A stretch of DNA of 64,000 nucleotides, from contig CANMXP010000008.1 of assembly GCA_947501845.1 (NCBI GenBank), positions 1 through 64,000 on the forward strand, read 5' to 3'. A program made the position numbers and the translations under genes. This document shows, one piece after another, positions 8,107 through 25,550 of this stretch. The DNA comes from an uncultured Flavobacteriaceae bacterium (GTDB taxonomy: Bacteria > Bacteroidota > Bacteroidia > Flavobacteriales > Flavobacteriaceae). The notes beneath the pieces are model-generated. The model saw only the letters and a list, made by a program, of their open reading frames with translations. It had not been told where the DNA came from and made no database searches. Every line of letters starts with the position of its first letter. Within the stretch, counting starts at the first letter, position 1.

Positions 8107-8391
8107 ATTTTGGACTGATTTAGTTAAAAATTTAAAATTACATATAGCTGTTTCCCATAGCAATACCAGTTATTGGGTATTTTGATGATCTATACATTAA
8201 TATTTCTCGTGCCAACCAAAAATCAACCAACTCCCAAAAGAAAGTAATTACATCACACAAAAGTAGGTTTAAATATATAAAATAATTTTTTAATACGTCT
8301 GCCTTTGATTATTACTTAGTCATTAAAAAATTATAAAGAATACTTTAATAGTTAGTATTGAAAGAATGCCCATATTCTACTACTTGAGCAT

Positions 8392-9028: not shown

Positions 9029-9790
9029 TTATTCATAAATATCAATCCCATTATCTTCCAATAAAGAGGTAATATTATCAATCTTATTGGCAAAATTAAT
9101 ACCTTGATATTCCTCATTAAGGCCAGCCACTAACATGCCAATGACTTCCTCTGTTTCTTCTAATATTAGTGGTCCGCCACTATTACCAGGCCAAGATTCG
9201 ACATCAAGTTGAAATAATTCGACACCTTTAATGTTATCATTACTAATAGCTCCTGATGTTGTTGACAATAACCCACCAGGGTAACCAATTAGAATAACCT
9301 CTGAGCGTGTCGTAACTCCTGCAGATTCCCCAATAGTTAAATACGGATAATCCTCAGGCACTGAAGATGGGCTTACCAGTTCTAAAACAGCCACATCTTT
9401 AAGATAATATTCTGGTTCGGGATCATTAGATGAATCGATCCAAACAACTTTGGCAGTTGCCGAAAATTGTGGTTCTGATTTTTCAAATATTAAATCGACC
9501 GTATCTCCTACATTCTTATTCTTTACAACATGTTTTGCTGTCAATAATTTAGAAGGGCTTATTAAAAAGGCTGTCCCAGTTCCTGTTCCTGTATTAACCA
9601 AGGCTACAGATTTCTCTAATGCCTGATTAAATTTAGATTGGCTCTCAACTAATCCAAAATGAAAGATTAGATATACAAGTATTGGCAAGACACTTATTAG
9701 TATAAAAGAGGTACTTACCAGCTTCCCTTTTTTATCAAGCTTCTTTTTATTTTCATTTTTTTCGGTTTCTGTATTTCCAAGAAGTATCAT
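9029..9790 (-). CDS. Membrane-anchored trypsin-like serine protease
   Basis: I chose the ATG at 9790, which follows the stop of the tubulin-like gene by one base. A start at 9814 would overlap that gene. The protein has 253 residues with a short cytoplasmic N-terminus, one membrane helix (FILISVLPILVYLIFHFGLV) and then an S1-type protease domain. The catalytic triad is visible: His in LLTAKHVV near 87, Asp in KDVAVLEL near 131, Ser in PGNSGGPL near 203. No PDZ domain follows, so this is not a full DegP/HtrA. The protease domain should be periplasmic, where it could process the exported domains of the neighbouring vWA proteins. That link is inferred from the operon. Confidence 0.85.
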   Translation of the reverse strand: MILLGNTETEKNENKKKLDKKGKLVSTSFILISVLPILVYLIFHFGLVESQSKFNQALEKSVALVNTGTGTGTAFLISPSKLLTAKHVVKNKNVGDTVDLIFEKSEPQFSATAKVVWIDSSNDPEPEYYLKDVAVLELVSPSSVPEDYPYLTIGESAGVTTRSEVILIGYPGGLLSTTSGAISNDNIKGVELFQLDVESWPGNSGGPLILEETEEVIGMLVAGLNEEYQGINFANKIDNITSLLEDNGIDIYE

Positions 9791-9791
9791 C

Positions 9792-12317
9792 TTATTTTTG
9801 TTTTTGGTTAGCACCCATAATTTTCATAAACTCTTCTTCTTTCATATAAGGGTTTCTTAAAATATTCCAGGTTTCATGTCCCATGCCCTTAGTTTTTGAA
9901 TAACGTTCTTTTTCTAATTCATATACATGCTTAATGTCCCCTATATTCTTAATATGTTTTAACGGATTAAAAGAGTCTCCATTAGACATGTAGCCCTGTT
10001 CAACATAGAATATGACAATATTGCTAATTTCTTCGTTTAGCCAAATACCATCTTCATCCTCTACATACGAGTTTAAATAAGAAATTTCAGTATCATTTTG
10101 CAGAGCATTAAATACTTTATCTATTTGGCTTTTATCTTTACCTATAACTAATCTTGGTATGCCTTTTCCTTCTACAAAATCTGTTTTATTATCATTATTA
10201 ACCATAATTAGTGGTGTTTTTGCAATGAGTGCCATTTTCCCACTTTCTTTAGGGTTGTTATTGATATACTCGGCAATATCCATATCTTCAAAACATGTTA
10301 ACCTGATAACATCTGATTCAAATTTTGTAATGCAGTCTCTAAATAAAGTCGTATGGAGTTTATCTGTAGATGTATTAATATAATCCCATAAAGAAGCTTC
10401 TTCAATAATGGTTTTCTTAGATGTTATATTTTTTCCCGTTTGTGTGAAATAACGCGTTTTTGCTGAGTTATATGTTCTATGAAATGCTTCTGGAGAACTA
10501 CCATCTTTATATACTCTAAGTATAGGTATGGTTGTATCTTTTAATTCTGATTCTATATCATTATACCTAGATTGTAATGTTTTGTTTTTCTTATTGGAAT
10601 TATTATTTCTATCCTGAGAATCTATGACATGGCTAATATTCTTAATTAGCTGATCTATTTTAGGTATTTTAGGAAGTGTTATATTTCCATCAAATGTTTT
10701 AAGCGGATCTGTCTCATCTGTAATGTTCTTTTTCAATCGCCATACTCTTTCTGCCATTAAATGGATTTTCATCAAATCGAAAGTTGTTTTTAAACGGTCA
10801 CGAACCACAGCGTTTTGTTCGCCAATTATTTTATACCTTGATTTAAGAATCCATTTTATTTGTTTTTCCAAGAGGTTTTCCCATTTTTCTGACTTGGGAT
10901 GTATCCCTAAGGTTTCCCAATACTCTCTATTATCTTTTATGGCATCGCTAATAGCTGTTAACTGAATTTTTGATATTTGTAAGTTCTCAGTACGATCAAT
11001 TGTTGTACTTATTAACTCATGTATCCTTTGTATCAATTCATCTTCGGCAAGCTGTAAATTATTTTTAACGGCTGTGTAATAATTATTATCACCATAAGAG
11101 CTAAACCATCGCTTAATAAAATGGTATGCAGATTGCTCTGTGTACTCTTTTTTATTGATCTGTTCGGCTTTTATCTTTAAATCTGAAAGGACTCTATTCT
11201 CGCCATCAACAATAGTAGCATCTAAAGTATCAAACGCATTTTTTAGTGTTCTTTCAAAATGGGTTATGGTATCGCTAACAATGCGTTGCCTTACAGCTTT
11301 TATTTGATTTTTATTACTCTTATTGTAATATGCTATGGGGTCTATCCATCTGTTAAGGAGATTGATACTTAAATCTACCCCCAATAACTCTTCCAATTGT
11401 CTTTTAGGATATTGAACCGCAGCAATACCAAAAGAGCCATACTTGTCTATAAAGGCACTTCCTTTACTATCCACTAATCTTCGGTCTCTTTTTTCTCTTA
11501 ATCCAAAAATGTTTAAAAACATCCATAAACCAGCAATTTTGTATAGCCCGCTTAAGCTTTTTACCTGTGCTATACCGTCATTTCGATCTTGCGAAATGAA
11601 ATGGGAAATCTCGAAAGGAAGGTCATTGATCTTGGTTGTGGTAGAGTCTGGCCAGCTCATATTATACTCTTGCTCAGGCTGATTAAATTTTTCTAATGAA
11701 CATAAGGAAGATAATGTATTGCAATACAAAATATTATCCTTGCCCATATAGTCTCTACCTGGTGTTAAAAATAAACCATAAACATCTTCCAATCCCTGAA
11801 TATGTTTCTTGATCATATAAGCAATATCAATAAACACCCCAGAGCCAGTACCTCCAGTTAATGAGCCCGTTATAAACACCGCAGGTCTCGTATTATCACT
11901 ATCTACTTGTGTATGGTTGTTAATTTTATTGAACGCATTGTTAATAGCCTCTTTTACAGTATTAAAATTAGGATAACTCCATAAAGCAACTCTTCCAAAA
12001 GCAGGCATACCGCCAGCGCCTTTTCCAGCATCTTTAATATAGTTTGGATCTGGTATCCAATGGCTTTCAGACTCTGGTAACTGGTCTTTTAGATTATTGA
12101 TTTTTGTTTCTTTATCACTTAAATCTAAATAAACACGTTTAATTTCATTCTTTAGAACCGTTGTGGAAGGGAAACTACTTTCATCGGTTTCTAAATATAA
12201 ATATTCTACATTCCCAGGCTTGTTTTTACCTGTATGCTCAAAATAAAATTTTTGGGTCTCTTCTAAAACACGCAATCCGCTTGTTCCTATACCTATTAAT
12301 AATGTTGGTTTTGCCAT
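9792..12317 (-). CDS. Tubulin/FtsZ-like GTPase family protein
   Basis: This is an 841-residue cytoplasmic protein. It opens with a Rossmann-like strand, PTLLIGIGTSGLRVLEET. The tubulin signature loop is GSLTGGTGSGVFIDIAYM near residues 151-168, matching the G-box (GGGTGSG) that contacts GTP phosphates in tubulin and FtsZ, with one Gly changed to Thr. KGAGGMPAFGR near residues 100-115 may be another nucleotide loop. The C-terminal ~450 residues are helical and charged. I place it in the tubulin-like (Tubulin_2 / FtsZl-1) group, which Makarova and Koonin proposed in 2010 to belong to a membrane-remodelling system with vWA proteins. The gene lies in an operon with several vWA genes, in agreement. 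Confidence 0.8.
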   Translation of the reverse strand: MAKPTLLIGIGTSGLRVLEETQKFYFEHTGKNKPGNVEYLYLETDESSFPSTTVLKNEIKRVYLDLSDKETKINNLKDQLPESESHWIPDPNYIKDAGKGAGGMPAFGRVALWSYPNFNTVKEAINNAFNKINNHTQVDSDNTRPAVFITGSLTGGTGSGVFIDIAYMIKKHIQGLEDVYGLFLTPGRDYMGKDNILYCNTLSSLCSLEKFNQPEQEYNMSWPDSTTTKINDLPFEISHFISQDRNDGIAQVKSLSGLYKIAGLWMFLNIFGLREKRDRRLVDSKGSAFIDKYGSFGIAAVQYPKRQLEELLGVDLSINLLNRWIDPIAYYNKSNKNQIKAVRQRIVSDTITHFERTLKNAFDTLDATIVDGENRVLSDLKIKAEQINKKEYTEQSAYHFIKRWFSSYGDNNYYTAVKNNLQLAEDELIQRIHELISTTIDRTENLQISKIQLTAISDAIKDNREYWETLGIHPKSEKWENLLEKQIKWILKSRYKIIGEQNAVVRDRLKTTFDLMKIHLMAERVWRLKKNITDETDPLKTFDGNITLPKIPKIDQLIKNISHVIDSQDRNNNSNKKNKTLQSRYNDIESELKDTTIPILRVYKDGSSPEAFHRTYNSAKTRYFTQTGKNITSKKTIIEEASLWDYINTSTDKLHTTLFRDCITKFESDVIRLTCFEDMDIAEYINNNPKESGKMALIAKTPLIMVNNDNKTDFVEGKGIPRLVIGKDKSQIDKVFNALQNDTEISYLNSYVEDEDGIWLNEEISNIVIFYVEQGYMSNGDSFNPLKHIKNIGDIKHVYELEKERYSKTKGMGHETWNILRNPYMKEEEFMKIMGANQKQK

Positions 12318-12320
12318 GTC

Positions 12321-12698
12321 CTATTTTTTTAAAAGTGAATAATATTTTGAATAACCATATATAAAAGCTATAACTATAAGTAAGTATACAAGTAGCTGCA
12401 CACTTATGTCTGCATAGAATGTTAAGATTCCCCATGTGAACTCATGGATTCCGTTTACTTTTATGAAGTAAAACCAGTAGACATTGAAAAGCATAAACAA
12501 AAGGAATAGTGCCCATAAAAACTGAAGACGCATAAAGATATCTTGGTGTAATTTGGTCTTATTCTGCGTGAATTTTACTAGAGCAAAAAAGATTGCCCAT
12601 AGAGCAAATGCTGTTATACCAACAAGCATTATAGATTTAATTAAAAAACCTATCCAATTATCTACACCTATTTCTAATAATGATTTAAATTGTTCCAT
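12321..12698 (-). CDS. Small polytopic membrane protein
   Basis: This is a 125-residue protein with at least three membrane helices: MLVGITAFALWAIFFALVKF near residues 20-40, FLWALFLLFMLFNVYWFYFI in the middle, and LLVYLLIVIAFIYGYSKYY near the C-terminus. I recognise no family. It starts 18 bases after the vWA-like gene and ends 3 bases before the tubulin-like gene, so it is an integral part of the operon. It could be the membrane receptor for the tubulin-like filament. That role is a guess from position only. Confidence 0.75.
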   Translation of the reverse strand: MEQFKSLLEIGVDNWIGFLIKSIMLVGITAFALWAIFFALVKFTQNKTKLHQDIFMRLQFLWALFLLFMLFNVYWFYFIKVNGIHEFTWGILTFYADISVQLLVYLLIVIAFIYGYSKYYSLLKK

Positions 12699-12716: not shown

Positions 12717-13904
12717 TTACCAGTCTTCTTCTTGTGATGTATTATTTGTATTCGATGGAGACGATTTTTCTTCTCGTTCTGTCCAATCGCTTCTTTCTCT
12801 ATTCGTATTCTGTTTCTTTCCAGCAGCTAAATATTTATATCCAAAATACCCGCCTACTCCAAGTAAAAGCAATAATAAAATGATGCCAAAACCACCGCTT
12901 CCCTTATCTTCTCCTTTTATAGTTATGTACTGCGGTTTTGAGTTGGCTCCTTTTGTAGACACGTTAATTTTATAGGTTGCTGGTTCTAGTTTTAAAGATT
13001 GAAATGTTTTGTTTTTTACACTATAGTTTTTCGTTTTTTTGGTTTTAAGGTTATGTGCTCTCAGTGCATATTTTGGTAGGCTATCACACCCAATGCATGT
13101 CCATGAAACACGTATGTTCGATGAAGTCATTGTAAAAGGCGTTTTCCTAGTTCCTTTGGGAGAGATGATACGTAACGATTTCTTATCTGTATTTGTTGGC
13201 GTTATGGTAACCTTCTTGCCATTTTTAAAAATATCTATCTTACTTATATCTATCTTTTTTACTGTTACGGTAAACCTACTGGCTGTTGTATGTTTAAATC
13301 TGGCAACAACCTCACCTACCGAACCTGTTTCGTATTCATCGACCATACTCAGGTCTTCTTTGTCCAATAACCTTGAATTAGGGTCATCAGCCATGCCCTG
13401 AATCCTGATGATGTAATACTCCAGTATCTGATTATTATAGGCAATGTTGCAGACTTTCGCTTCGGCATAATCTCCCCAGGTATCATTATCATCATAAGAA
13501 AAAGGAAACTTATAGTATTTATTAAAATCTGAAGGATAATTACCAACTAGGTTAATTTGAAATTTGTTTGTACTACTAATTTCTCCAAAAGGCATAACCA
13601 TAAAAAAATCATCTACCCCAATTAAAGGCTTCCCTTTCCCTTTAATAATAGCCTCTATTTCTGGACTTGTAAAAACACCTGTTTTTTTCCAGTTAGGGAA
13701 TTTATTGGATGTATAAGACGCCGTAATTATAGATTTTGTAAAAGCTATGGCGTCCTGTCGTTGCGAAAGCGTAATAGGCGAATTATCTTTTTGCACATTT
13801 TTTGATAAGTCAACCATCACAAAAACACTTTGTGTTTTACTTTGACTATATATGCTTGAAAAACATAAAATAATAAGGGTAATACTTAAATATAATGTTC
13901 TCAT
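12717..13904 (-). CDS. Exported vWA-like protein with one C-terminal membrane helix
   Basis: The protein has 395 residues and a signal peptide (LYLSITLIILCFSSIYSQ). The mature part opens with a vWA-type first strand, QSVFVMVDLSKN near residue 29, in which the MIDAS DxSxS reads DLSKN, so the last Ser is replaced and metal binding is doubtful. A beta-rich middle section follows with two Cys in TCIGCDSLP. A glycine-rich membrane helix lies near 336-356 (FGIILLLLLLGVGGYFGYKY), then a short charged cytoplasmic tail rich in Ser, Asn and Glu. The vWA-like part should be periplasmic. It is two bases from the next vWA gene. Confidence 0.75.
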   Translation of the reverse strand: MRTLYLSITLIILCFSSIYSQSKTQSVFVMVDLSKNVQKDNSPITLSQRQDAIAFTKSIITASYTSNKFPNWKKTGVFTSPEIEAIIKGKGKPLIGVDDFFMVMPFGEISSTNKFQINLVGNYPSDFNKYYKFPFSYDDNDTWGDYAEAKVCNIAYNNQILEYYIIRIQGMADDPNSRLLDKEDLSMVDEYETGSVGEVVARFKHTTASRFTVTVKKIDISKIDIFKNGKKVTITPTNTDKKSLRIISPKGTRKTPFTMTSSNIRVSWTCIGCDSLPKYALRAHNLKTKKTKNYSVKNKTFQSLKLEPATYKINVSTKGANSKPQYITIKGEDKGSGGFGIILLLLLLGVGGYFGYKYLAAGKKQNTNRERSDWTEREEKSSPSNTNNTSQEEDW

Positions 13905-13906
13905 AT

Positions 13907-15088
13907 CTAATATTTTTTAGGTTTAATAAATAGCACGATAAGCATTCCCGATACACAAAAAACAGCAAGCCATACAGGGAAGTAATAATCTTTTGTTATT
14001 CCTGCTAAAATTTCTTGAACTGCAGCGGCATAGCTATCTATATCCATGCCTTCATAAACAGCATAGCTACATGCATTTGCCTTATCGAAAAAAGCGTTAT
14101 TGGCGCTTTGAAGATTAATAATGTTAATGTTGTCCTGATAGAAATTATTGAATTGAGGAATTTCACATAAAAAGGCACTTATTTCATTTTCAAAATAGCT
14201 ATCCTCACCATCTGTTACCAATACAAAAATGTTATTTGTGTAACGTTCATTTTGCACATGTTCTAAGGTAAAAAGGTAATTAGACCAAATGGTTTCCAAT
14301 AACGGCGTTCCTTCAGTAAACTCAATACCGTTCAATGCATTGATTGCTGCCTGTTTGTTTGTAAAGTATTGGTGCATACCATCTAGCTGCTGACTATTAC
14401 TAGTCCTTATAAGATTATTAAAATCTCCACTAGGATTATTTTCGGTAAACCAGCTTAGAATGATATCGGTATCATTATTTATATTCTGAAAAGACTTTCT
14501 TAAAATCTCCTGGCCATTACCAATATGCACATCCATACTAGAACTTGTATCTAGTAAAAAAGACACTAAATTTTTATCCATCTTAATTGGCAGAAGTAGT
14601 AATGAGAACCCAAAAGCAGGAATAAGAGACCATAACTTTATTTTTTTGAATCGTTGTAACGCTGCTTTATTTTTGCCTTTTAAATCCTGCCTTGTTGCTG
14701 GGCAGTTTATATTTTGCAGTATATTTTCTCTTTTAAATCCATTGGCTAATACTCTATAGCTTACTATTTGAATAATGATGCAAACAATTATACTAAATAG
14801 GTGCACCAATTTTTCTGTATCACTTTGATAAATATCTGTTTTTAACCAATGGTACATAAACCAAATTACCAATAGGAATTCTATGACAATACTGCATATG
14901 ATTATATGGATTAGTATTTTAAACGCTCTGGTTACTATAATACTTTCTTTTATAAATTTAGAAGCCACCATACTTAATAACCATATACCCACTAATACTG
15001 CTGGCACAAGCCACCATTGTTGAGATTGGGTCATAGTATCTATGTACTTGCCAAAGGCTTCAAATAATAAGATTAAGTACTCTTCCAT
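13907..15088 (-). CDS. Polytopic membrane protein with von Willebrand A domain
   Basis: The protein has 393 residues. About four membrane helices fill the first 165 residues, one vWA domain follows, and a last helix near the C-terminus (VWLAVFCVSGMLIVLFIKP) closes it. The MIDAS is complete: DTSSSMD near residue 175, the Thr in TEGTPLLE and the Asp in VLVTDGEDS. The TM-vWA-TM layout recalls BatA/BatB proteins of Bacteroidota, but there is no MoxR ATPase here. It is one base from the upstream gene and two from the downstream gene. It is the best candidate in the operon for a metal-dependent adhesion or scaffold domain. Confidence 0.85.
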   Translation of the reverse strand: MEEYLILLFEAFGKYIDTMTQSQQWWLVPAVLVGIWLLSMVASKFIKESIIVTRAFKILIHIIICSIVIEFLLVIWFMYHWLKTDIYQSDTEKLVHLFSIIVCIIIQIVSYRVLANGFKRENILQNINCPATRQDLKGKNKAALQRFKKIKLWSLIPAFGFSLLLLPIKMDKNLVSFLLDTSSSMDVHIGNGQEILRKSFQNINNDTDIILSWFTENNPSGDFNNLIRTSNSQQLDGMHQYFTNKQAAINALNGIEFTEGTPLLETIWSNYLFTLEHVQNERYTNNIFVLVTDGEDSYFENEISAFLCEIPQFNNFYQDNINIINLQSANNAFFDKANACSYAVYEGMDIDSYAAAVQEILAGITKDYYFPVWLAVFCVSGMLIVLFIKPKKY

Positions 15089-15089
15089 A

Positions 15090-17084
15090 CTATTTTTCTA
15101 TAACTAGTGTTTCTATTGTTTTTTCTTTTAGTTTCATTCCGTAGGTTATAATCTCCTTAATTTCACCCATTTGTAATGCTACTGAACTCAGGTCGTACGA
15201 CACTTCTTCTTGTGTGGCTTTTATATTCGAATACGTTTGAAAATTTGAAAACAAGGTCACATCGTCTATATAAATGCCAAATAACTGTTTCATTTTATTT
15301 ATTAAATCTGCCTTATACCTTGCAGCGGTATTCGTAGAAAAATCGTTTCCAGTTTCTGTAATTTTTGATGTATTACTGAGTTCTTCCAGTATAATTAAAA
15401 GCACATTTATTTTTGAAATGATAACCTCATTAACAACAATCCATTCCATACCCTTTAGCTTATCTTGATCTGATGCTTTATTTCCTATCTTACGAATCAG
15501 ATCTTTATCTACTATGAGTCCATCATTATTTTTAATAGTAGTTAAGATGGTGTCCCATTGGTTAAATGTGTTCCCTGTGTTATTTTTAAGGTATTTCGCC
15601 AAGACTATAGATTGAAACTTTTTTATTGCATAATTTGTTTCTGAACTTATGGCTTCAATAATTTGATTTTCAATATCTTTTATATAATTGAAAAAAGTCA
15701 ACAGCTTATCGACCTGAGCATGGTGATTTTCTATAAAGAGGGTTTGCTTTTCGAAACGTTCTATTTTTGGAATTAATAGTTCAAGCTTTTCTTGTTTTTT
15801 ATTATTTGTATCGTTCAGGCTTGAAACTTGCTGATTTAGCCCTTCTTTTTCTTTTATGAGGTTATTATTTTCTGATTTTGATAGTTGTAGCTGCTCTCTC
15901 AAAGATTGGGTTTCACGGTCACCATTAGAGTTTATATCTCTTCTAAGGCTTTTTATTTCATCTTTAATTTCCCTTTGACTTTCTTCTACTTTTTTGGTTA
16001 TTTTTTCGGTAACTTTTTTTAGTGATCTTGAAGATATTTCATCAACGCTATTTCTTGTTTCTTTAATAGTATTGAAATCATTATCTTTTTCTGATTCTGA
16101 TTCGCCTGCCCAAGAAGAATTCAAATTGGATTTATTATTCTTTGGTAAATCTTTTCTTTGAAGTTTATTAATAAGCGGTTTTCTAAACCATATTAAAAGT
16201 GCTACTAATACACCGACTCCTAATATAATGGCTACATATAAAGGGCTAAATAAATCTACAAAAGGTTTCTTCTCTTCTTTAACTGTTTCTTTATTAGCGA
16301 CTCCACCTATGATATTAAATTGAAGCTTCACACCATCTTTAGAAGATTTTATAGGATATATCCCATCCTCCAGTACAACACCTTCTACAGACTCCATATC
16401 CCATTTATATAAAACACCTTTATCTTTTCCATAAAGCACATCTATTGGTCCTTCCTCTATCAATACAGTGTGCTTCTCAAATGCTTTGGTATCGTAAGTA
16501 GGAAGAATATCTCCAATAATACTTTTATCGACATAGGCTGTAGCATAACCAGGTATAATAATACGTATATAGGGGTCAGGAAACTTTTTTATTGATGTTG
16601 ATTTATAGAAATAAACCAGCCCAGATGGATCATAAGGATAGCTCTTTACAGTTTTTTCACCCTTTTTCTTTAACCTAACTAGTTTTTCTAAATAGCTAGC
16701 TACTTTGATTTCTTTTTCTTCTTCTTCTATAGTAATTTCATCATGATTAAAATTAAATAGATATCCCTCATAAAGCTTCCCGTCACTCATAAAAACTTTC
16801 TGTTTCTTTATAAGTTTTTGAATGGTTGCATCTGAAAGTATTTTAGGGGGCAAATTAAATGCCTTCATATCATTACCGTTTCCAAGAAAAAGTTCTGAAT
16901 TGTTAGGTAATGTATGTTTAAGATCTTTTCGTTCTAAAATCTCTCCCTCGAATACTAGAAAACTTTTGTCAATGCCTTCCAGTTTCTTTAAGCTTTCACT
17001 TTGAACCTGAGTATATTTTTGTTGACCAATACTAAATTGGACAAAAAAAAGCGTTACAATTGTATATTTTATTGTATTTACCAT
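15090..17084 (-). CDS. Exported/cytoplasmic bitopic protein with long coiled coil
   Basis: The protein has 664 residues with a signal peptide (VNTIKYTIVTLFFVQFSIG). The exported part of ~260 residues is beta-rich. One membrane helix follows near 283-302 (LYVAIILGVGVLVALLIWF), then a cytoplasmic region of ~360 residues. That region begins with a Ser/Asn-rich linker and continues as a long coiled coil (about 345-440, with heptads such as LREQLQLSKSENNNLIKEKE), followed by a helical domain. I do not recognise a family. The layout suggests a periplasm-to-cytoplasm linker in an envelope-spanning complex. Its start overlaps the end of the upstream vWA gene by 7 bases. Confidence 0.75.
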   Translation of the reverse strand: MVNTIKYTIVTLFFVQFSIGQQKYTQVQSESLKKLEGIDKSFLVFEGEILERKDLKHTLPNNSELFLGNGNDMKAFNLPPKILSDATIQKLIKKQKVFMSDGKLYEGYLFNFNHDEITIEEEEKEIKVASYLEKLVRLKKKGEKTVKSYPYDPSGLVYFYKSTSIKKFPDPYIRIIIPGYATAYVDKSIIGDILPTYDTKAFEKHTVLIEEGPIDVLYGKDKGVLYKWDMESVEGVVLEDGIYPIKSSKDGVKLQFNIIGGVANKETVKEEKKPFVDLFSPLYVAIILGVGVLVALLIWFRKPLINKLQRKDLPKNNKSNLNSSWAGESESEKDNDFNTIKETRNSVDEISSRSLKKVTEKITKKVEESQREIKDEIKSLRRDINSNGDRETQSLREQLQLSKSENNNLIKEKEGLNQQVSSLNDTNNKKQEKLELLIPKIERFEKQTLFIENHHAQVDKLLTFFNYIKDIENQIIEAISSETNYAIKKFQSIVLAKYLKNNTGNTFNQWDTILTTIKNNDGLIVDKDLIRKIGNKASDQDKLKGMEWIVVNEVIISKINVLLIILEELSNTSKITETGNDFSTNTAARYKADLINKMKQLFGIYIDDVTLFSNFQTYSNIKATQEEVSYDLSSVALQMGEIKEIITYGMKLKEKTIETLVIEK

Positions 17085-18532
17085 TCTAAATTTGATTTAG
17101 AGTTACTAAATTCATTCTCCTTAATGATTTTTTGATTACTATCATTATAATTCTTGTCATTGTACATATCCAAAACACCAATAGAAACAAGCACTATTAA
17201 TACAACAAATAATGAGAGAATTAATATTTTGATCCAAAAAGGGATTGTTTTTTCGAATGTGATTGGAATGAAATATGATGCCCCTTTATCCCTATCAACT
17301 ATTCGAATAGTAGGGGGTACTGCGTGTTTAGGTATTCTTCCTTGGAATTTAAATTTTATAAAATCTCCATTTTCAATATCTATTTCAAAAAAACCCTGTC
17401 CTTGTTTAATTTTTCCTCTGTCTTTTTTCTCAATTCCTTTTGAATTAGATTTAATCAATTCAAGAGATATCTTTGGATATAATTTAAGAATAGGCGGTTC
17501 GAAAGGGATGCTAATACTATAATTACCATCAGGAATCTTAAGTAAAAAGTTACTTTTAGTGATATTATTTGCGTAATGATATTTAAATGCTAGTGCTTCA
17601 TCTACCTCAAAACTTGGGAAAATAAAATCAGTTACTAAAGGCTGTTGGTCACTTAATAGATTTAATATAGTGTGATCGGTTCTATTAACACCTAAATTAT
17701 CTTCAAAATAACACTCTTCAGATATATATATACTTCCTTTTTCATCATTTTCCTCAGCATTTTTCTCAAGTTCAACTCTATTTATATTAATTGGAAGGTT
17801 AGATAATTGCTGTAGTTTAACATTAATTATTTGTTTTAGGTATTCTCTATTTTGTTGAATCTCTGAAATTGAATAATCAAAATCACTAATTATCGTTACT
17901 ATGAAATGTGCCTTTTTTCTCTTATAATAGTTTTCCAGATATTCCATTAATTTCACAAAATCCGTCCAAGTACTTTCCTTTTCAAGTTCAAAAGAAGAAC
18001 TCTCTTGATTAAAATATTTTATTGTATTTTCAATATTTGGTCTTTCTATTTTTTTTGGACTACTTTCTGGAAAAATAATTTCAGCATTATTTCCAATTGT
18101 CCATATTGAAAAAACATTACTTATCTTTTCAGAAGGTTTTTCTAATTTTAATAATCCGTCCAATATATATAGCTTCGCTACATCTAATGAAGATACAGGT
18201 GTTTTATACTTACTTGGGCCAATAAAAGCTTCCTTTTCTAATTTTTCAATAGTGTTTTTACACAAACTCAAGACTCTTTTGTTAGGCTTTAGCTTTCTAT
18301 ATGAGCTACTTATATCAATAACAAAAATGTAGTGGTTACCTACTTCATCATGGATAGGTTTTACATTAGATTTAGATAGTTCATAGATATTGCTCGTATT
18401 AAAGTCTAATATTTTCGAAAGATCTGTCTCAGTAAATTGTATGATAACAGTAATTATTACTGTCAATAAACTAAACATAGAAAATGCCCCTTTTAAATAC
18501 CTGTTTGATAATATTTTATCGATTAAGTTCAT
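17078..18532 (-). CDS. Bitopic vWA-domain membrane protein
   Basis: I chose the ATG at 18532, 17 bases past the stop of the Hsp70 fusion. An earlier start at 18565 would overlap that gene. The protein has 484 residues: an N-terminal membrane helix (FSMFSLLTVIITVIIQF), a vWA domain with MIDAS DISSSYR near residue 71 and a likely second site in TIISDFDYS near residue 200, a beta-rich region, and a C-terminal helix (IPFWIKILILSLFVVLIVLV) with a short tail. The Ser residues of the DxSxS motif are intact. The domain between the helices should be periplasmic. It is probably a structural partner of the two neighbouring vWA proteins. Confidence 0.8.
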   Translation of the reverse strand: MNLIDKILSNRYLKGAFSMFSLLTVIITVIIQFTETDLSKILDFNTSNIYELSKSNVKPIHDEVGNHYIFVIDISSSYRKLKPNKRVLSLCKNTIEKLEKEAFIGPSKYKTPVSSLDVAKLYILDGLLKLEKPSEKISNVFSIWTIGNNAEIIFPESSPKKIERPNIENTIKYFNQESSSFELEKESTWTDFVKLMEYLENYYKRKKAHFIVTIISDFDYSISEIQQNREYLKQIINVKLQQLSNLPININRVELEKNAEENDEKGSIYISEECYFEDNLGVNRTDHTILNLLSDQQPLVTDFIFPSFEVDEALAFKYHYANNITKSNFLLKIPDGNYSISIPFEPPILKLYPKISLELIKSNSKGIEKKDRGKIKQGQGFFEIDIENGDFIKFKFQGRIPKHAVPPTIRIVDRDKGASYFIPITFEKTIPFWIKILILSLFVVLIVLVSIGVLDMYNDKNYNDSNQKIIKENEFSNSKSNLEW

Positions 18533-18549
18533 ATATCGGATAATACTAA

Positions 18550-21500
18550 TTACTTTACAATCCACGTATAATGTCTATCATTGGCATCACCTACCTCATG
18601 ATCTTCTACGAGGGTAGAAAACTTTTTTTCTTTTTTAGCACCTTTTTCTTTTACCTCACAAACAATATCATCGTTCTCCCATAATTCCAGACCTACGCCT
18701 TCTGTCTTTGAATCAATACGTACTTGTTTTAGTAAATTATATTTGTGCTTTTCTCCTTTTCTAAAAGAAGCTATAGGGTCTGTCCCCATAATCTGATAAA
18801 AATTCACCATACCGCCATCTAACCCGAAATCACTTTCTACCTTAGTTCTTTTTTTTATATGCTTTAGGCCTTCTCCATTTTCTGTAAATGAGGCCCCCAA
18901 CGGAATCAACTTTATAAGGTCAAAATCATGAGCACTTAAACTATGTTTGACGCCAAACCAACTATTTACCCTTACAGAATTTAATTCTACCCTACTTCTA
19001 TTCATTCCATACAGGCAAGCCCCTTTAGCTACAGCACTTTTTAACTCGTCAATGGACAGGCTATGGACTTCAGGAATGCTACTTTGCCCCAAGGCCTTAA
19101 GTACTGTTTTTTGAATTTCTGGAAAAACAACACTCCGACCAGAAAAAATTACTTGATGTATCTCTCCAGAACACAAACTCATAATATCTTTAACCACAGT
19201 TTGTACATTATCAAATAATAAAGCTTTAACCTCATCATCTTTTAAGAATGGATATGTACCATCTGACTGACGTGCAAAGGCTTGCATAATCTCTTCTTCA
19301 TCGCTAATTGAGACTGAGGTTCCAAAAGCCTTATTAATAAAACTTCCTAGTTTTATATTGTCTATCAGCACATCGCTACTTTCATTATAATGATCTATGA
19401 TTTCGCACTTGACGCTAAAAGCAAGATCTACTAATCGCTCTTTTAATTGTACATCGTGATTAAAATTGAATGGATCTACATATACACCCAAGCCGTTAAG
19501 ATATTTGCTTAAGAAATTGATGATGACATAATCTATAGTATCGCCCCCAATACCATACCCCAACTTTCCTATGATATCAATCTTATAAAATATGCCATCA
19601 CCAATATTCTGCCCCTTTATGGAGGCTATGGTTGCATTTATAGTAGCACCTCCCATATCAAATAGCAAAACAGTTGTATTTTTAGTAATCTTTTTTACAC
19701 CAAACAAATAGTACATCAAGTTTGCTTCGGCCTCATAGATACATCGAATTTCATCAAACTGATTTAGAACGCTTACACTATCAATAATATCTTGAGTTTT
19801 CTGTGCTGTAAAATTATTTGGAATAGCGACTATTGCTCTTTTAGGTTTAAATACCCCGTTTATTAACAGTTCTTTTTTACTTTCTTTGGCTACCGCTTTT
19901 TCTAGTTCTTTATAAATACCTTTTACCAGTAACGAACAGAGTTCTTTACCATCGAACTGGTATGAAACTACCGGATTCTTTGTAAAATCAAGTTGAATTT
20001 TATCTGCAAAACCAAGTAGTTTTTTAATAGACCTAAAGGTAGCTGGGGCATATTGTTCCCTACTACTATTTGTTTTAGCAAGTGCCCCGTAAAAATATTT
20101 TTTCTCCTTATGCGGCAATGCATCTCGCAGTTCGTTGTTATCTGCGCTTTTAAGAAAAGTAAGCATTGAAGGTATAATGAGGTCTTCTCCAGTTTCTGTT
20201 TTGGGAATAAATACTTCTGGATACCCATCTGCGCCAGCAGCAATACAAGACCCTGATGTCCCAGGATCGATCCCCACCCATGTATTTCCTATGTCTGGGC
20301 CTATATAAAAACTATACTTTAAAAAATCGCTTCTTAATGATTTAGAGAAGAACAAAATGGATTTTTCGTAAAAAGCCTCCAGTACAAACTCAAATTTAAT
20401 ACGCTTGTCTACTTGTAATAATGCATCTACTTTTTCAATATCAAGATTGAACTCAAAATCGCCATGTTTCGAGCAGCTCACCTTCAAAGCATCATTACTT
20501 CCAGAAATACTGTCGCTATCACTTCTTAAACGAATTTCATATCCTGGAGCACTTTTTTCTTGTATAATTTTAATATATACCTGATTTCTCCATAAACCTT
20601 TTAAAATTGAGTTCCCTAAATTCACGGCACCTTGAAGTACAAAGACCTGATTTTTCTTATTTTCACCCCATCTTAGATATGGTATTAATTGTCGCCCCCA
20701 ATTGGTACCCTCTACTCTGTTCTTATAATTAATTTCTTCAAAAGAATCGTTTAGAGCAGTACCCATTTTTAAAGTCAACTTCTTTGGTTTTCCTACAATT
20801 ATTAAAATGATTAATATAAGTAGTACTAAAGCTATTGGTAATAGATAAGTGATCATGATGATCGATAATTTAGATTTATATTCTATGTCTTGTAGTGCTA
20901 GATTTCTTGTTGTTTGAAAGGTGTAATTAATCTTTTGTTTCGAATTTTTTAATGGTTTATACCCTACATTGGCCATATAAGTCAATGCCACTTTTCCAAG
21001 ACTTTCTTTTTTTAGAGGTATTTCTTTTAGTACGGGTATCTCATAACTCATAGAGCTACTATCTAAGCTCATCAACGCATTGTTTCTGGTATATCTCGAC
21101 TCCCATTCTTGGCTAGTATTTACCGAACCTACTTGGAAATTAAAATCTAAAGGTTTTACAGAATCTGTATTTGTTTTAACAGAAAGTGATAATTCATCAA
21201 TATGTATTTTATCATTATGTATAAAACGAAGTTGTGATGGCGATAAATTAAAATCGCTTCCCTTATGGCTTATTTGCTTTAACCCAATATTCCCATCTAT
21301 GAACATACTCACATCTTCTGGCCGTTCTTTTCCTGCTTTAGGTTTTATTTTATAGGCTATTAAACCAACATTATTCTTTTTGGTTCCAAAAGCGTATTCA
21401 AAGTAATCTATAGGATAAAAAGCGCTTGATAAGTCATCGATATATTCTTTAATAATATTGGGAGCTGCTCTCTGGGAAAGTACATTATCATAAGAATAAC

Positions 21501-22203
21501 GATATATATCCTTAAGCCTTAAAAAATCATTCTTGTTACCAAATTGAGACCCCGTAAGAAAGTCACTAACAATAATCAATATATATTCAGTAGCATAATA
21601 TGGACTCTTTATATTATCTAAAATCAGCGGATACACATAATTGGAAAGGGTTACGCCTTCACCAAAACCCTGCTTAGGAATTTTATAAAATAAGGTGTTA
21701 AAATATTGCTTAGCATTAGCCCTTATACTGTATGCGCTTGTCCATTTAAACTGCTTATCTTTTATAAATTTTTTATTAAAATTATTAATAATCAAATCTT
21801 TGTTACCAGAATACTTATCTAGTTTAAGTAATTTCATGTCCTGCTCTGGGATTCCAAATTGGTAATATGATATCTCATCATAAACTGGGTCAAAAAAACG
21901 AATGCCGTTTTGTGTTTCTGAAACCAGATTTTTAGAGTTTTCATTTATTGATGAATGGGGGATTTTATTTTGAAATAATGAAATTAATGCCTCTTTAGAT
22001 TCTAAGATTGCTTTTGATTTTGAGACAAAAGCCCCTGAGATATCTACGGCTATCAAATAGTGTCTTCGTATATTATTTTTTGTTTTTACAGAGTCAAGTC
22101 TTTGAGTAAGATTTGCTTCTTTCAATACAGCATGATTTGCTTCTCCTTCATTATGAGGGACCAAAAACAATAAAATTGAAAAAAATGAAACCAATATTTT
22201 CAT
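18550..22203 (-). CDS. Fusion of exported vWA-like domain, membrane helix and Hsp70/actin-fold ATPase
   Basis: The protein has 1217 residues. A signal peptide (KILVSFFSILLFLV) is followed by a vWA-type start, HYLIAVDISGAFVSK near residue 53, where DISGA lacks the second Ser of the MIDAS. A beta-rich region continues to a membrane helix near 445-467 (YLLPIALVLLILIILIIV). Residues ~480-635 form a beta-rich cytoplasmic domain. From ~641 the chain is Hsp70-like: phosphate-1 loop GIDPGTSGSC, phosphate-2 loop LLFDMGGATINA near 849, and an adenosine-type motif VIFSGRSVVFPE near 1019. A substrate-binding domain typical of DnaK is not evident at the end. The ATPase is therefore tied to a periplasmic domain across the membrane. 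This layout is unusual, and I know of no characterised homologue. Confidence 0.85.
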   Translation of the reverse strand: MKILVSFFSILLFLVPHNEGEANHAVLKEANLTQRLDSVKTKNNIRRHYLIAVDISGAFVSKSKAILESKEALISLFQNKIPHSSINENSKNLVSETQNGIRFFDPVYDEISYYQFGIPEQDMKLLKLDKYSGNKDLIINNFNKKFIKDKQFKWTSAYSIRANAKQYFNTLFYKIPKQGFGEGVTLSNYVYPLILDNIKSPYYATEYILIIVSDFLTGSQFGNKNDFLRLKDIYRYSYDNVLSQRAAPNIIKEYIDDLSSAFYPIDYFEYAFGTKKNNVGLIAYKIKPKAGKERPEDVSMFIDGNIGLKQISHKGSDFNLSPSQLRFIHNDKIHIDELSLSVKTNTDSVKPLDFNFQVGSVNTSQEWESRYTRNNALMSLDSSSMSYEIPVLKEIPLKKESLGKVALTYMANVGYKPLKNSKQKINYTFQTTRNLALQDIEYKSKLSIIMITYLLPIALVLLILIILIIVGKPKKLTLKMGTALNDSFEEINYKNRVEGTNWGRQLIPYLRWGENKKNQVFVLQGAVNLGNSILKGLWRNQVYIKIIQEKSAPGYEIRLRSDSDSISGSNDALKVSCSKHGDFEFNLDIEKVDALLQVDKRIKFEFVLEAFYEKSILFFSKSLRSDFLKYSFYIGPDIGNTWVGIDPGTSGSCIAAGADGYPEVFIPKTETGEDLIIPSMLTFLKSADNNELRDALPHKEKKYFYGALAKTNSSREQYAPATFRSIKKLLGFADKIQLDFTKNPVVSYQFDGKELCSLLVKGIYKELEKAVAKESKKELLINGVFKPKRAIVAIPNNFTAQKTQDIIDSVSVLNQFDEIRCIYEAEANLMYYLFGVKKITKNTTVLLFDMGGATINATIASIKGQNIGDGIFYKIDIIGKLGYGIGGDTIDYVIINFLSKYLNGLGVYVDPFNFNHDVQLKERLVDLAFSVKCEIIDHYNESSDVLIDNIKLGSFINKAFGTSVSISDEEEIMQAFARQSDGTYPFLKDDEVKALLFDNVQTVVKDIMSLCSGEIHQVIFSGRSVVFPEIQKTVLKALGQSSIPEVHSLSIDELKSAVAKGACLYGMNRSRVELNSVRVNSWFGVKHSLSAHDFDLIKLIPLGASFTENGEGLKHIKKRTKVESDFGLDGGMVNFYQIMGTDPIASFRKGEKHKYNLLKQVRIDSKTEGVGLELWENDDIVCEVKEKGAKKEKKFSTLVEDHEVGDANDRHYTWIVK

Positions 22204-22221: not shown

Positions 22222-22671
22222 TTATATTTTGACTCCAACAATTTTTAATATCTCTTCGCGTTTACTTTTTGGAATCGGTAAAACAGTATGTTCTTTTAGA
22301 TACAATTGATTGTTTTCAATCTTGTGGGCCATATCAAGGTTTACGATATATGATCTGCTAAGGCGATAAAACATATCGTATTTTGATAGGTATTGCTTAT
22401 AAAAATCCTTAAGTGATGATTTAATTACATACAGCCGCTTTTCGCATAAATGAATTTTAAGATAATGGTCGGCTGCCTGTATATGTATGATATCTTCGAA
22501 TTCCAGGCTTTCGAAAACACCTCTTTTAACTGAAATCCAAATCTTTTGTGATTGGTATTCTTGATAAGATTTTTCAGAAATATTTAATTTTCTAAAAAAA
22601 TTAACAACCCAATTAATAAAATTATAATAGCTTATTGAGTCTTGATTAGAAACAAATAATTTTGTGGTCAT
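22222..22671 (-). CDS. Stand-alone LytTR DNA-binding protein
   Basis: The protein has 149 residues. About 45 residues of unassigned N-terminal sequence precede a LytTR domain: WISVKRGVFESLEFEDIIHI, then ADHYLKIHL, and the C-terminal FYRLSRSYIVNLDMAHKIEN. It has no receiver domain. It lies 18 bases in front of the vWA-Hsp70 gene and heads the operon, so it is the likely direct regulator of the membrane system. The 141-base gap to the response-regulator gene upstream probably holds a promoter. Three CTGTT boxes occur on the minus strand of that gap, but their spacing does not fit the usual LytTR repeat. Confidence 0.85.
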   Translation of the reverse strand: MTTKLFVSNQDSISYYNFINWVVNFFRKLNISEKSYQEYQSQKIWISVKRGVFESLEFEDIIHIQAADHYLKIHLCEKRLYVIKSSLKDFYKQYLSKYDMFYRLSRSYIVNLDMAHKIENNQLYLKEHTVLPIPKSKREEILKIVGVKI

Positions 22672-22812: not shown

Positions 22813-23580
22813 CTAGTTATGAAGACCAATGAGTTTGAATAACGTTTTTAATTGATCTTCAGGTATTTTTATGTAAATTTTTTTGTTTAACTCTGGATAG
22901 ACAATACGTCTGCCATCAATATTGTTTATATGATCTAAATTAACAATATAGCTTCTACTTAATTTATAAAAATTGGGGTAATAACGTAATGTTTCATCAA
23001 AAATCTGTTTTTCAAGTGTAGCCCTTTTTTTCAGGATGTCACCATTAATCATGTTGAACTCACAGATTTTATCTTTAGCTTCAACAAATACAATATCTTT
23101 GATCGTTATACCAGTATAATTAGATGTCCCCTCTTTAATCCAATAAGTATCTCTATGTCTAGGTTTATAAGATATTTTGTCTTTAAAAGTTTCTAATTCC
23201 TTAAAGTTTACTTGGTCTTTTATTTTAAGCAATGCTCTTTTTATTGCTTCACTATCAAATGGCTTACTTATATAATTACAATTTTGTATGGTTCTGGTTT
23301 GTTCAATTATTTTATCATCAGATATACCCGATACATATAAAATTGGAATATTATGTAATAATTCAATAGTTTCCCCAATATGTACGCCAGCATAACGATC
23401 GTCTTGTAGTTGAATATCAAGTATCGCCATATCGAAAGTTTCTTTTTTCACATGTCCAATAGCTTCTTTATAATAGGCGTTAGGGCCTAATATTTGTACT
23501 TGCTTTCCAAACACATCATATATATGATTTACAATGTTTTTAGCTTGAACTAAATCATCTTCGACTATAAGTACTTTCAT
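22813..23580 (-). CDS. LytTR-family response regulator
   Basis: The protein has 255 residues. The receiver domain (1-120) has the acidic pair in VEDD (residues 8-9), the phospho-acceptor Asp55 in MAILDIQL and the conserved Lys near 106 in YISKPF. The LytTR DNA-binding domain (about 145-250) contains WIKEG, IVFVEAKDKICEF and FYKLSRSYIVNLDHINNIDG. The DNA-recognition segment is very similar to that of the stand-alone LytTR protein next door, so both may bind related sites. It lies 107 bases downstream of the TPR sensor kinase gene, its likely partner. Confidence 0.92.
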   Translation of the reverse strand: MKVLIVEDDLVQAKNIVNHIYDVFGKQVQILGPNAYYKEAIGHVKKETFDMAILDIQLQDDRYAGVHIGETIELLHNIPILYVSGISDDKIIEQTRTIQNCNYISKPFDSEAIKRALLKIKDQVNFKELETFKDKISYKPRHRDTYWIKEGTSNYTGITIKDIVFVEAKDKICEFNMINGDILKKRATLEKQIFDETLRYYPNFYKLSRSYIVNLDHINNIDGRRIVYPELNKKIYIKIPEDQLKTLFKLIGLHN

Positions 23581-23687
23581 ACGTTTATATTTATTGATTT
23601 TTAGTTTTCATGAACCTTAATGATTAAAATAATAATTCCAATGTGCGTTACCGATGATTTTAACCTCGTTGGTTTCATTTTTAGAAA

Positions 23688-25550
23688 TTATAATTTAATA
23701 AAAAACTGAAATACGTTAAGATCTGCTTCTCTTTTTATATTTATGCAACTTCCAAGTTTTTTTATAAAACGTTTTATAATTTGCCACCCCAATCCATTTG
23801 AAGATTCTAATTGTTCTATAGAAAACTTATTTCCATTATCACTATAGGCAATGTCTAGCATATTAGCACCTTTAGTTTTTACTTTTAATTTTATCTTTAA
23901 TTTTCTATCGGTTTTAACAGCATGTTTCATTGAATTAGTCATTAATTCTCTAATAATAAAAGTAAGCTTAGAGGCAATTTCTCCATTTAGTATTACTGGT
24001 TCTAAATCCTTTTCTATCATCACACCATGCTTATTCATATTCATGGCTTGATATTTTTCTTCAAGTATTTTATTTAAATGACCTTTTATGTTTACCTTTT
24101 GTCCTGGTTGGTTATATAGCGTATCATCGACAGCAATAGATGCATAGAGCATATTTTCTATAGAATCTACACCATCAAATTCTAATTTTTGCAATTCTTG
24201 GATTACCTGTGTGTAATCATTTTGTTTTCCATGCCTGATATCTGTATTAAGCAAATCGAGGTCTTCATTCAGCTTGAGTATTCTTCTTCGCTGTCTATAT
24301 AAGAGTATCGATAAAATAGAAACAACTATAAAAAAGCACAACAATAACCATAATATTTTTAGCCAGTTTTTCGCCAATTTTTCCTGATGGTCTGCTCGTT
24401 CTTTTTGTTTTATATTTTCATTTTCTTTTTGGTTTAATTCAAACTGATTCCATGTTTCTAAAACACTTACTTTCTGCGTGTTAAACAAACTATCGTTCAA
24501 CACTGCCCAATTTTTTAATTCATTATAGGCCAATTTAAATGCCGACAGTTGATAGTAGTAATCTCCCCAATTTTTCAAATTATCAAGCTCGATGGTCTTA
24601 TCATGGTTTTGCTGAAAAAATGCCTTCGCCGTATTTAAATATGGTAAAGCCTCTTTTGTCTTATCCATATCAAGATACAATCTGGCTAAAGCATTAGCTG
24701 TTACGGCACTATTTCTTATATCTTTTATCTTAGTTCTTATTTTATAAGCTTCCTTAAAATTTTCTTCTGAAAGTAAATAGCGCTTCTGAAATTGATGAAT
24801 AACTCCAATATTATGAAGGCTGTAAGCTATATCTTCCTGATTTTTAAAATCTTTTTTTATTCCTAAAGAAGATTTATGGTAAAATAATGCCTTGCCATAA
24901 TCGCCAATGGCTGTATTTACATTTCCTATATTATTATACACCAAAGCTAATTTAGCAGGTTTACTTATTTGTAAATACAGTGCTAGGCTTTCCTCATAAT
25001 GCTTTAATGCCAATACATACCTTTCCTGATCATTATATAAGTTTCCAAGAGAGTTATGTATTGCAGCTACTGTTTCTTCAGATTCTGTGTATTGTGCCAA
25101 TTCTAAAGAACGGGTATAATACTTAATGCTCTGCACATGGTTTCCCTCATAATTATAAGTAATCCCAATATTTCTTAATCTACCAATTAAAGGGAGCGTA
25201 TCTTTTCTAATACTATCTAAAAAAAACGCTTTTTTGTAATAGATTCTAGCAGAGTCATACTTTCCCATTTTTCTATAAGACAAACCTGCATCATTAAAAG
25301 ATTTAGCAATACCCAATGTATCTGAAGCTATGCCAAAAGCATTGGCGGCAAGTTTATAAAAGTAAACAGCGTGATTAAATTTTTCCTTATAATAACAAGA
25401 ATCTCCTAATGTATATAGATTATCCCCATAAAAAGAATCCGAATGTACAGTATCCACTTCCAATCTATCTTGATGACTACACCGAATACATGTAAAAATC
25501 ACAATAAAAAGCACTGCATAATTGCATGCTTTTAAGTTTAATTTTATCAT
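23688..25550 (-). CDS. TPR-containing sensor histidine kinase
   Basis: The protein has 620 residues. A signal or anchor segment (YAVLFIVIFTCIRCS) with a possible lipobox is followed by about seven tetratricopeptide repeats (residues ~40-360, e.g. AAIHNSLGNLYNDQERYVLA), presumably in the periplasm. A membrane helix lies near 400-420 (ILWLLLCFFIVVSILSILLY). The phospho-acceptor region around DIRHGKQNDY resembles HisKA_2-type kinases. The ATP-binding domain has an N box (ELMTNSMKHA), a G1 box (YSDNGN) and a G2 box (GLGWQII). It is the probable partner of the LytTR response regulator downstream. Confidence 0.88.
   Translation of the reverse strand: MIKLNLKACNYAVLFIVIFTCIRCSHQDRLEVDTVHSDSFYGDNLYTLGDSCYYKEKFNHAVYFYKLAANAFGIASDTLGIAKSFNDAGLSYRKMGKYDSARIYYKKAFFLDSIRKDTLPLIGRLRNIGITYNYEGNHVQSIKYYTRSLELAQYTESEETVAAIHNSLGNLYNDQERYVLALKHYEESLALYLQISKPAKLALVYNNIGNVNTAIGDYGKALFYHKSSLGIKKDFKNQEDIAYSLHNIGVIHQFQKRYLLSEENFKEAYKIRTKIKDIRNSAVTANALARLYLDMDKTKEALPYLNTAKAFFQQNHDKTIELDNLKNWGDYYYQLSAFKLAYNELKNWAVLNDSLFNTQKVSVLETWNQFELNQKENENIKQKERADHQEKLAKNWLKILWLLLCFFIVVSILSILLYRQRRRILKLNEDLDLLNTDIRHGKQNDYTQVIQELQKLEFDGVDSIENMLYASIAVDDTLYNQPGQKVNIKGHLNKILEEKYQAMNMNKHGVMIEKDLEPVILNGEIASKLTFIIRELMTNSMKHAVKTDRKLKIKLKVKTKGANMLDIAYSDNGNKFSIEQLESSNGLGWQIIKRFIKKLGSCINIKREADLNVFQFFIKL

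Follow-up and report, generated by a model that had tools for sequence, protein, structure and literature searches.

A predicted membrane-spanning Hsp70 in a tubulin-like/vWA gene cluster of an uncultured Flavobacteriaceae bacterium

Related Systems and the Locus

The tubulin-like protein FtsZl1 was placed by Makarova and Koonin (2010; PMC2875224) in predicted membrane-remodeling operons together with vWA and membrane-protein genes. In the main text of that paper, where the words Hsp70, DnaK, and trypsin are absent, P-loop GTPase and OmpA genes are frequent, not universal, companions. The GAP1-N2 systems of Kaur et al. (2020; PMC7159879) are centered on a GTPase. As laid out in the sections of that paper devoted to them, tubulin and HSP70 are non-overlapping themes, HSP70 is accompanied by GrpE/DnaJ with the GTPase at the core, and membrane vWA proteins are among the components. 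The gene described here lies in a stretch of 64,000 nucleotides, called the window throughout, from an uncultured Flavobacteriaceae bacterium (assembly GCA_947501845.1, contig CANMXP010000008.1, positions 1 to 64,000 of the forward strand). At 18550..22203 (coordinates written in this dotted form are on the minus strand) it encodes a 1217-residue protein in which a vWA-like, exported N-terminal part is joined to an Hsp70 part through a single membrane helix. The gene is part of a cluster that also encodes a tubulin-like protein, other vWA-like membrane proteins, and a trypsin-like protease.

The cluster resembles the FtsZl1/vWA operons, as outlined in the main text describing them, in having a tubulin-like gene together with vWA-like and membrane-protein genes, and it departs from them in also encoding a trypsin-like protease and a membrane-spanning Hsp70. 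Unlike the GAP1-N2 systems, as far as they are set out in the sections mentioned, it has tubulin and Hsp70 together, with the Hsp70 fused through the membrane. Among 14 cluster and regulator proteins there is no Pfam match to a P-loop GTPase or an OmpA-like protein, nor to a GAP1/GTPase core, diverged members of which could escape Pfam. The Pfam family PF13809 of the tubulin-like protein is one that we take to be equivalent to FtsZl1. Phrase searches of the open-licence literature returned no description of a membrane-spanning Hsp70 architecture, in keeping with a first-pass annotation of the gene, which knew of no described chaperone of this layout.

A Rare but Conserved Fusion Protein

The reading frame is open throughout from an ATG start. 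The order of parts in the chain is a signal-peptide-like N terminus (residues 1–22, 22138..22203, with the h-region within the first 15 residues), a vWA-like start, an Ig-like sandwich, the single membrane helix (residues 443–470, 20794..20877), a beta-rich domain, and the Hsp70. The first-pass annotation had put one membrane helix near residues 445–467, and hydropathy bears this out: the block at 443–479 is the sole strong hydrophobic one in the chain, with a 19-residue mean of up to 3.18. The hydrophobic N terminus and the membrane helix are present in all six fusion proteins, six being, here and below, the window protein plus its five homologs (loci L005, L006, L007, L026, and L027). In L007, L026, and L027 the N-terminal hydrophobic stretch stops just ahead of the ectodomain.

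The five homologs have the same layout at 29–89% identity. Two are from close relatives (89% and 85%), one is from genome G003 (~33%), and two are from Bacteroidales metagenome-assembled genomes, where the copy in L026 is cut by the contig end (37%) and the copy in L027 is full length (29%). The ratio of nonsynonymous to synonymous substitution rates (dN/dS) over the whole fusion gene is 0.088 between the window and L005. An artefactual, chance, or mis-assembled fusion is excluded by the homologs of the same layout and this purifying selection; the fusion is real and conserved, yet rare and patchily distributed.

Four of 60 genomes carry the fusion, its own included (G000, G002, G011, and G003), and the remaining matches in that search are DnaK-sized open reading frames (ORFs) of 633–681 residues. 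In a sample of the phylum searched at an E limit of 1e-20, the only carrier among 395 Bacteroidota is the window's own genome. A scan of species-representative contigs gave four loci: Flavivirga algicola and an uncultured Flavobacteriaceae bacterium, both already among the five homologs, and the two Bacteroidales genomes. Only a pair of ectodomain peptide patterns served as the query, so a relative whose ectodomain has diverged would have escaped it. An ordinary DnaK of 636 residues is encoded on another contig of the same genome, which makes the fusion an extra Hsp70. A plasmid origin was considered and rejected. The 10 plasmid records that match (seven annotated dnaK and three without a feature) all do so within residues 629–1066 at 24–26% identity, none over 80% of the query. 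GC content is 0.30–0.32 over 1–28 kb and 0.31–0.39 beyond, and no island is claimed.

An Hsp70 without a Lid in the Cytoplasmic Half

The placement of Hsp70 motifs after about residue 641 in the first-pass annotation is confirmed. The nucleotide-binding domain (NBD; residues 641–1068, 19000..20283) matches Pfam HSP70 (PF00012) over residues 643–1065 with 39.3 bits against a cut-off of 20.6 (E 3.3e-10), and hhalign against 17 Bacteroidota DnaKs from related genomes covers residues 643–1066 (E 9.9e-19). A hidden Markov model search of PDB sequences gives 113 matches, the best 60 of which are DnaK, Ssb, BiP, Hsc70, and similar proteins. The score against the DnaK equivalog TIGR02350 is far below the requirement (48.3 bits versus 822.55).

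The predicted fold agrees. An AlphaFold (AF2) model of residues 473–1217, built with six sequences, has a pLDDT (predicted local distance difference test) of 72.2 and a pTM (predicted template modeling score) of 0.75, and its top row in Foldseek is DnaK 4b9q (E 8.7e-20). In VIA, the NBD-only DnaK structure 4rtf aligns over 337 residues with Z 27.2 and a root-mean-square deviation (rmsd) of 4.0. Matches to two-domain structures are longer, with 436 residues aligned to DnaK 7kru, which contains NBD and substrate-binding beta domain (Z 26.1, rmsd 7.6, DnaK 2–504), and 451 to BiP 6asy (Z 25.5, rmsd 6.4, BiP 24–527); their larger rmsd arises because domain placement differs. The first-pass annotation had asked for a comparison of this part with Hsp70 and with MreB and FtsA, and the model is that of an Hsp70 and of no other fold. 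Other ASKHA folds were rejected, as the best 50 of 1348 Foldseek rows are all, by title, Hsp70- or Hsp110-type proteins or complexes holding one. By sequence and predicted fold together, the Hsp70 assignment is firm. Weak PF00012 matches also occur on ORFs of ~340–360 residues in the same genomes, and these are probably MreB. Separately, genomes G034, G021, and G005 have Hsp70-family ORFs of 841–850 residues that are distinct from both DnaK and the fusion.

Residues 1077–1200 are modeled as an Hsp70 substrate-binding beta domain (SBD-beta). This SBD-beta-like part (residues 1080–1200, 18604..18966), called by predicted fold, is a feature that the first-pass annotation missed. No helical lid follows it, the chain stopping at residue 1217 with no helix past residue 676 of the model (1148 of the window protein). 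Between the membrane and the Hsp70 the model has a beta-rich cytoplasmic domain (residues 473–638, 20290..20787). The model is that of a lidless Hsp70, with a predicted ATPase domain followed by an SBD-beta. Of eight functional positions of DnaK inspected, the seven aligned to D8, T11, K70, R167, E171, D194, and T199 (DnaK numbering) are invariant in all six fusions. The fusion shares with DnaK and the Hsp70 family (PF00012) an NBD by sequence and fold, an SBD-beta by predicted fold, and the catalytic residues save D201. Unlike DnaK, it appears to span the membrane and has a large exported N-terminal part, an extra beta domain, and no lid.

The Exported Half and Membrane Topology

The ectodomain begins with a tentative vWA-like part (residues 44–297, 21313..22074) that has a strand and the motif DISGA at its start and YILIIVSD later, an order that resembles vWA domains. 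D54 and S56 are kept in all six proteins, as is Thr or Ser at 185, and D214 is kept in five; the Ser of the MIDAS in L027 was lost in one alignment and kept in another, and the latter was used. The MIDAS motif DxSxS reads DxSx(A/P) in all six, with Ala or Pro in the third position, so the MIDAS is altered. None of the six ectodomains matches a vWA model in Pfam, one matches TMEM131_like_N (E 0.0045), and hhalign of the ectodomain against the vWA-like proteins of the operon gives no significant score. The model of this part is poor (block pLDDT 24–39). The missing Pfam match, the insignificant hhalign score, and the poor model leave the vWA fold unproven, and the name vWA-like is kept for a short motif and strand order that are only suggestive of it. 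Adjoining the membrane is a predicted Ig-like beta sandwich (residues 298–440, 20884..21312; block pLDDT 53–82). Its scores in VIA are middling, the best row being a zona-pellucida module (Z 8.6) followed by many antibody V domains (Z 7.3–7.9).

Counts of cysteines before and after the helix are 0/8 in the window protein, 0/7 in L005, 1/7 in L006, 0/6 in L007, 2/5 in L026, and 1/8 in L027. ATP is available only in the cytoplasm. A topology with the N terminus outside and the C terminus inside can be inferred from the signal-peptide-like start, the one helix, the cysteine distribution, and the confinement of ATP to the cytoplasm. The first-pass annotation is upheld here in part: for its exported, vWA-like start the signal-peptide-like N terminus stands and the vWA assignment is no more than suggestive, and for its Hsp70 inside and ectodomain outside the domain order and cysteines fit, with the residues flanking the helix giving no help (see below).

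The Operon and Its Neighbors

From a LytTR gene (22222) to a DUF4230 gene (8392) the cluster is on one strand, with gaps of at most 19 bp or small overlaps. Next to the fusion is the gene for a membrane protein with N- and C-terminal helices and a vWA-like start (17078..18565; VIDISSS, by eye, with no Pfam vWA match). It is followed by a protein with a signal peptide, an exported part, a membrane helix, and a cytoplasmic part that looks like a coiled coil by eye and gives weak matches of the ATP-synthase-b type (15090..17084). A polytopic membrane protein (13907..15088) has a putative vWA domain with DTSSSM, for which Pfam VWA gives E 9.7e-4 and 19.8 bits, under the cut-off of 23.8. The protein at 12717..13904 has a signal peptide, a vWA-like start, and a C-terminal helix; it has no Pfam match, and its L035 homolog matches VWA at E 1.1e-3, under the cut-off. 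A small protein that by hydropathy crosses the membrane about three times (12321..12698) precedes the Tubulin_2 (FtsZ/tubulin-like) protein (9792..12317; Pfam PF13809, E 4.7e-40), whose loop TGGTGSG, containing GGTGSG, fits the GGGTG(S/T)G type. The membrane-anchored trypsin-like protease (9029..9814; Pfam Trypsin_2, E 3e-19) has His, Asp, and Ser triad motifs and is predicted to lie outside the inner membrane. The first-pass annotation missed this operon of tubulin-like, vWA-like, and trypsin genes, which has the fusion gene at its head, and it is the operon context that shifts the reading from an odd chaperone to a subunit of an envelope machine.

The LytTR DNA-binding regulator (22222..22671) lies 18 bp upstream of the fusion, a position kept in the two close relatives. 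Farther upstream, at positions 22813–25550, are a TPR histidine kinase and a LytTR response regulator, also kept in both of these; the surroundings of the L027 and G003 copies gave no match to the histidine kinase or LytTR regulators. An acidic-Trp tail closes two of the membrane proteins of the operon, EEDW at 12717–13904 and NLEW at 17078–18565, and L024 keeps both (DEDW and NLEW). The counterpart of the EEDW-tail protein ends PSDW in L027 and PEGF in L035, the one protein checked in L025 ends GEDW, and the L035 counterpart of the NLEW-tail protein ends otherwise (NKRVA). These tails are possible docking peptides. Past DUF4230, positions 5818–8163 encode a 781-residue exported-looking protein without a Pfam match at E 0.1, possibly an outer-membrane barrel, with 77% identity over residues 19–504, the portion present in L025. 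At the end of the cluster, positions 3483–5831 encode a polytopic membrane protein that has a patatin-like GGGSRAG/GASGG pattern by eye and no Pfam match at E 0.1. A promoter scan shows no excess (84 sites versus 89.1 in shuffles); terminator-like sites number 15 versus 7.0 in shuffles and were not used in interpretation.

Conserved Context and a Separated Version

The fusion, vWA-like, small transmembrane, tubulin, and trypsin genes occur in the same order in L027 (Bacteroidales) and in L035 (G003) at 21–34% identity. BLAST links the tubulin, the trypsin, the vWA-like protein and, though weakly (E 2e-4 and 0.004), the small protein in both loci; in L035 it also links the polytopic vWA protein. 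Position and layout were the basis for assigning the coiled-coil gene at the two loci and a second vWA-like gene in L035, which has moved downstream of trypsin. The four of 60 genomes that have the tubulin-like gene (at E 1e-10) are precisely the four with the fusion, and Tubulin_2 at E 1e-5 is found in 10 of 395 Bacteroidota.

A DnaK profile finds an Hsp70 near one of nine Tubulin_2 loci outside the window, L036 (G449), where another profile (HMMER) missed it. Like the window, L036 has a Tubulin_2 protein, a signal-peptide/vWA-like/transmembrane protein (vWA by eye, no Pfam match), a coiled-coil membrane protein (by eye), an Hsp70 domain, and a trypsin. Unlike in the window, the Hsp70 there shares its chain with a kinase-like domain instead of the membrane protein; the ORF at L036:6922–10485 matches Pfam Pkinase (E 1.9e-13) and HSP70 (E 1.3e-9), and its kinase motifs look degenerate by eye. 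Since L036 keeps the vWA-like membrane protein and the Hsp70 in separate genes beside Tubulin_2 and trypsin, the fusion in the window seems to unite two partners of a similar system. Among 164 genomes of its order the kinase-like-Hsp70 fusion is found in one, G449 itself, and relatives of the window fusion in none, an empty result that is not proof of absence. After a further Tubulin_2 gene, at L055:368–8455 (G340), come large proteins and a small TerD-like one (by eye), suggesting another tubulin-linked system.

Evolutionary Rates

The slowest dN/dS values measured between the window and L005 are those of the tubulin (0.008) and of the SBD-beta part (residues 1080–1217; 0.010). The trypsin (0.04), the NBD (0.07), the vWA-like proteins (0.08), and the ectodomain (0.09) are intermediate, and region 473–638 has 0.14. 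The fastest of the genes measured is that of the coiled-coil protein at 15090..17084 (0.26). Within the Hsp70 half, the last 138 of 577 residues hold 2 of 47, 6 of 62, and 6 of 56 differences in three close pairs (P 2e-4, 0.002, and 0.008), which are not independent of one another. There is a hint that, within this clade, SBD-beta and tubulin share a constraint.

A Proposed Switch and Its Alternatives

The explanation we favor, to which we give an even chance, is that the fusion acts as an ATP-gated transmembrane clamp or switch of a tubulin/vWA envelope system, and not as a general chaperone. It would be a bitopic subunit, set in the inner membrane, of an envelope complex that comprises the tubulin-like GTPase, several vWA-like membrane proteins, and, beyond the membrane, the trypsin-like protease. 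ATP binding and hydrolysis would switch the grip of SBD-beta on a cytoplasmic partner peptide or surface, candidates being the tubulin-like protein and the tails that other membrane subunits have in the cytoplasm. The single helix would couple the state of the grip to the vWA-like ectodomain outside, and the ectodomain would in turn gate the assembly of periplasmic partners and the protease. ATPase activity, partner, transmembrane coupling, direction of the signal, and physiological output are all points that we infer. A more specific version, held tentatively and given somewhat less than an even chance, is that this is the first transmembrane Hsp70, a lidless clamp on the tubulin-like GTPase that would control or read vWA-like receptors and a protease in an ATP-free periplasm.

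Several observations weigh against the proposed clamp. Allosteric transmission through a single helix requires that the protein oligomerize, and the count of lysine plus arginine beside the hydrophobic block favors neither orientation. SBD-beta was not detected by sequence comparison (E 0.66), AlphaFold may be drawn to Hsp70, and distant homologs show no excess conservation there (29–32% identity for SBD-beta versus 34–36% for the NBD). The position of DnaK D201 is Asn in all six fusions, which makes the ATPase rate uncertain, and no hydrophobic interdomain linker like that of DnaK can be made out by eye. As for cochaperones, the HPD motif is absent from nine of 10 cluster proteins checked, the one occurrence being at residue 197 of the patatin-like protein, and no cluster protein has a Pfam match to GrpE or DnaJ. 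Finally, the DnaK profile finds no Hsp70 near eight of 10 Tubulin_2 loci. These negatives are weak, since four of the stretches (L048, L051, L054, and L055) are limited by contig ends, and in a control at a limit as loose as E 10 the profile picked up four of the six fusions, missing L007 and the cut L026.

Two alternatives concern the purpose of the system, and both are compatible with a clamp. The one is a conflict or defense system of the type in Kaur et al. (2020), in which an assembly of Hsp70 and tubulin would trigger a protease or lipase effector on infection; this we consider a plausible minority view. The spread of the fusion is patchy, as noted above (four of 60 genomes, one of 395 Bacteroidota), the sections of PMC7159879 on predicted systems also include tubulin, HSP70, vWA, and trypsin, and a polytopic protein with a patatin-like motif (by eye) closes the cluster. 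The protease matches defense models that have a trypsin-like part (RT-Protease_XI, E 1.6e-16; LmuA, E 8.2e-11; Avs1b, E 3.8e-7), but these matches may reflect the trypsin fold alone; PADLOC matched none of the other eight of the nine proteins given to it (a set without the small and DUF4230 proteins), and a GAP1/DO-GTPase is not recognized by Pfam. The other, of equal standing to us, is a membrane-remodeling or cell-shape machinery as proposed for the FtsZl1/vWA operons by Makarova and Koonin (2010), with Hsp70 as a nucleotide-dependent assembly switch. Tubulin_2, vWA-like, and membrane proteins fit the description of those operons, but neither of their P-loop GTPase and OmpA genes is recognized by Pfam. 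We know of no phenotype for FtsZl1/vWA operons.

Rather unlikely, in our estimation, is that the helix and ectodomain merely tether an Hsp70-type assembly factor beside the tubulin-like protein, the two halves being independent and no signal crossing the membrane. Such a tether would suit a single helix whose sequence has diverged between distant homologs (15–36% identity), and an Hsp70 that in L036 is not fused to a membrane protein. It sits poorly with an ectodomain under purifying selection (dN/dS 0.09) and with the pairing of ectodomain and Hsp70 being kept among the homologs found, down to 29% identity, though the contig scan was biased by its ectodomain patterns. Least probable is a chaperone motor tethered to the inner membrane, where it would pull on or fold polypeptide chains, a use comparable to that of Hsp70 at pores for protein import. 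The NBD and SBD-beta fold and the membrane location would suit it, but the chain lacks a lid and the genome has an ordinary DnaK as well. Moreover, neither a translocon nor a J-protein or GrpE gene is recognized alongside, and the genes that share the operon encode tubulin, vWA-like proteins, and a protease.

Implications

The periplasm is held to lack ATP, and work done there must therefore be powered from the cytoplasm. An Hsp70 and an ectodomain in one chain would, if the proposed switch is true, be a new way of doing so. The Hsp70 family would then extend from soluble chaperones to a transmembrane switch. The fusion also brings an Hsp70 into direct connection with the tubulin-like/vWA operons, which were predicted as a class in 2010 and 2020 on the basis of genome context (the literature was not searched specifically for experimental work on it), and offers a concrete point at which they can be tested.

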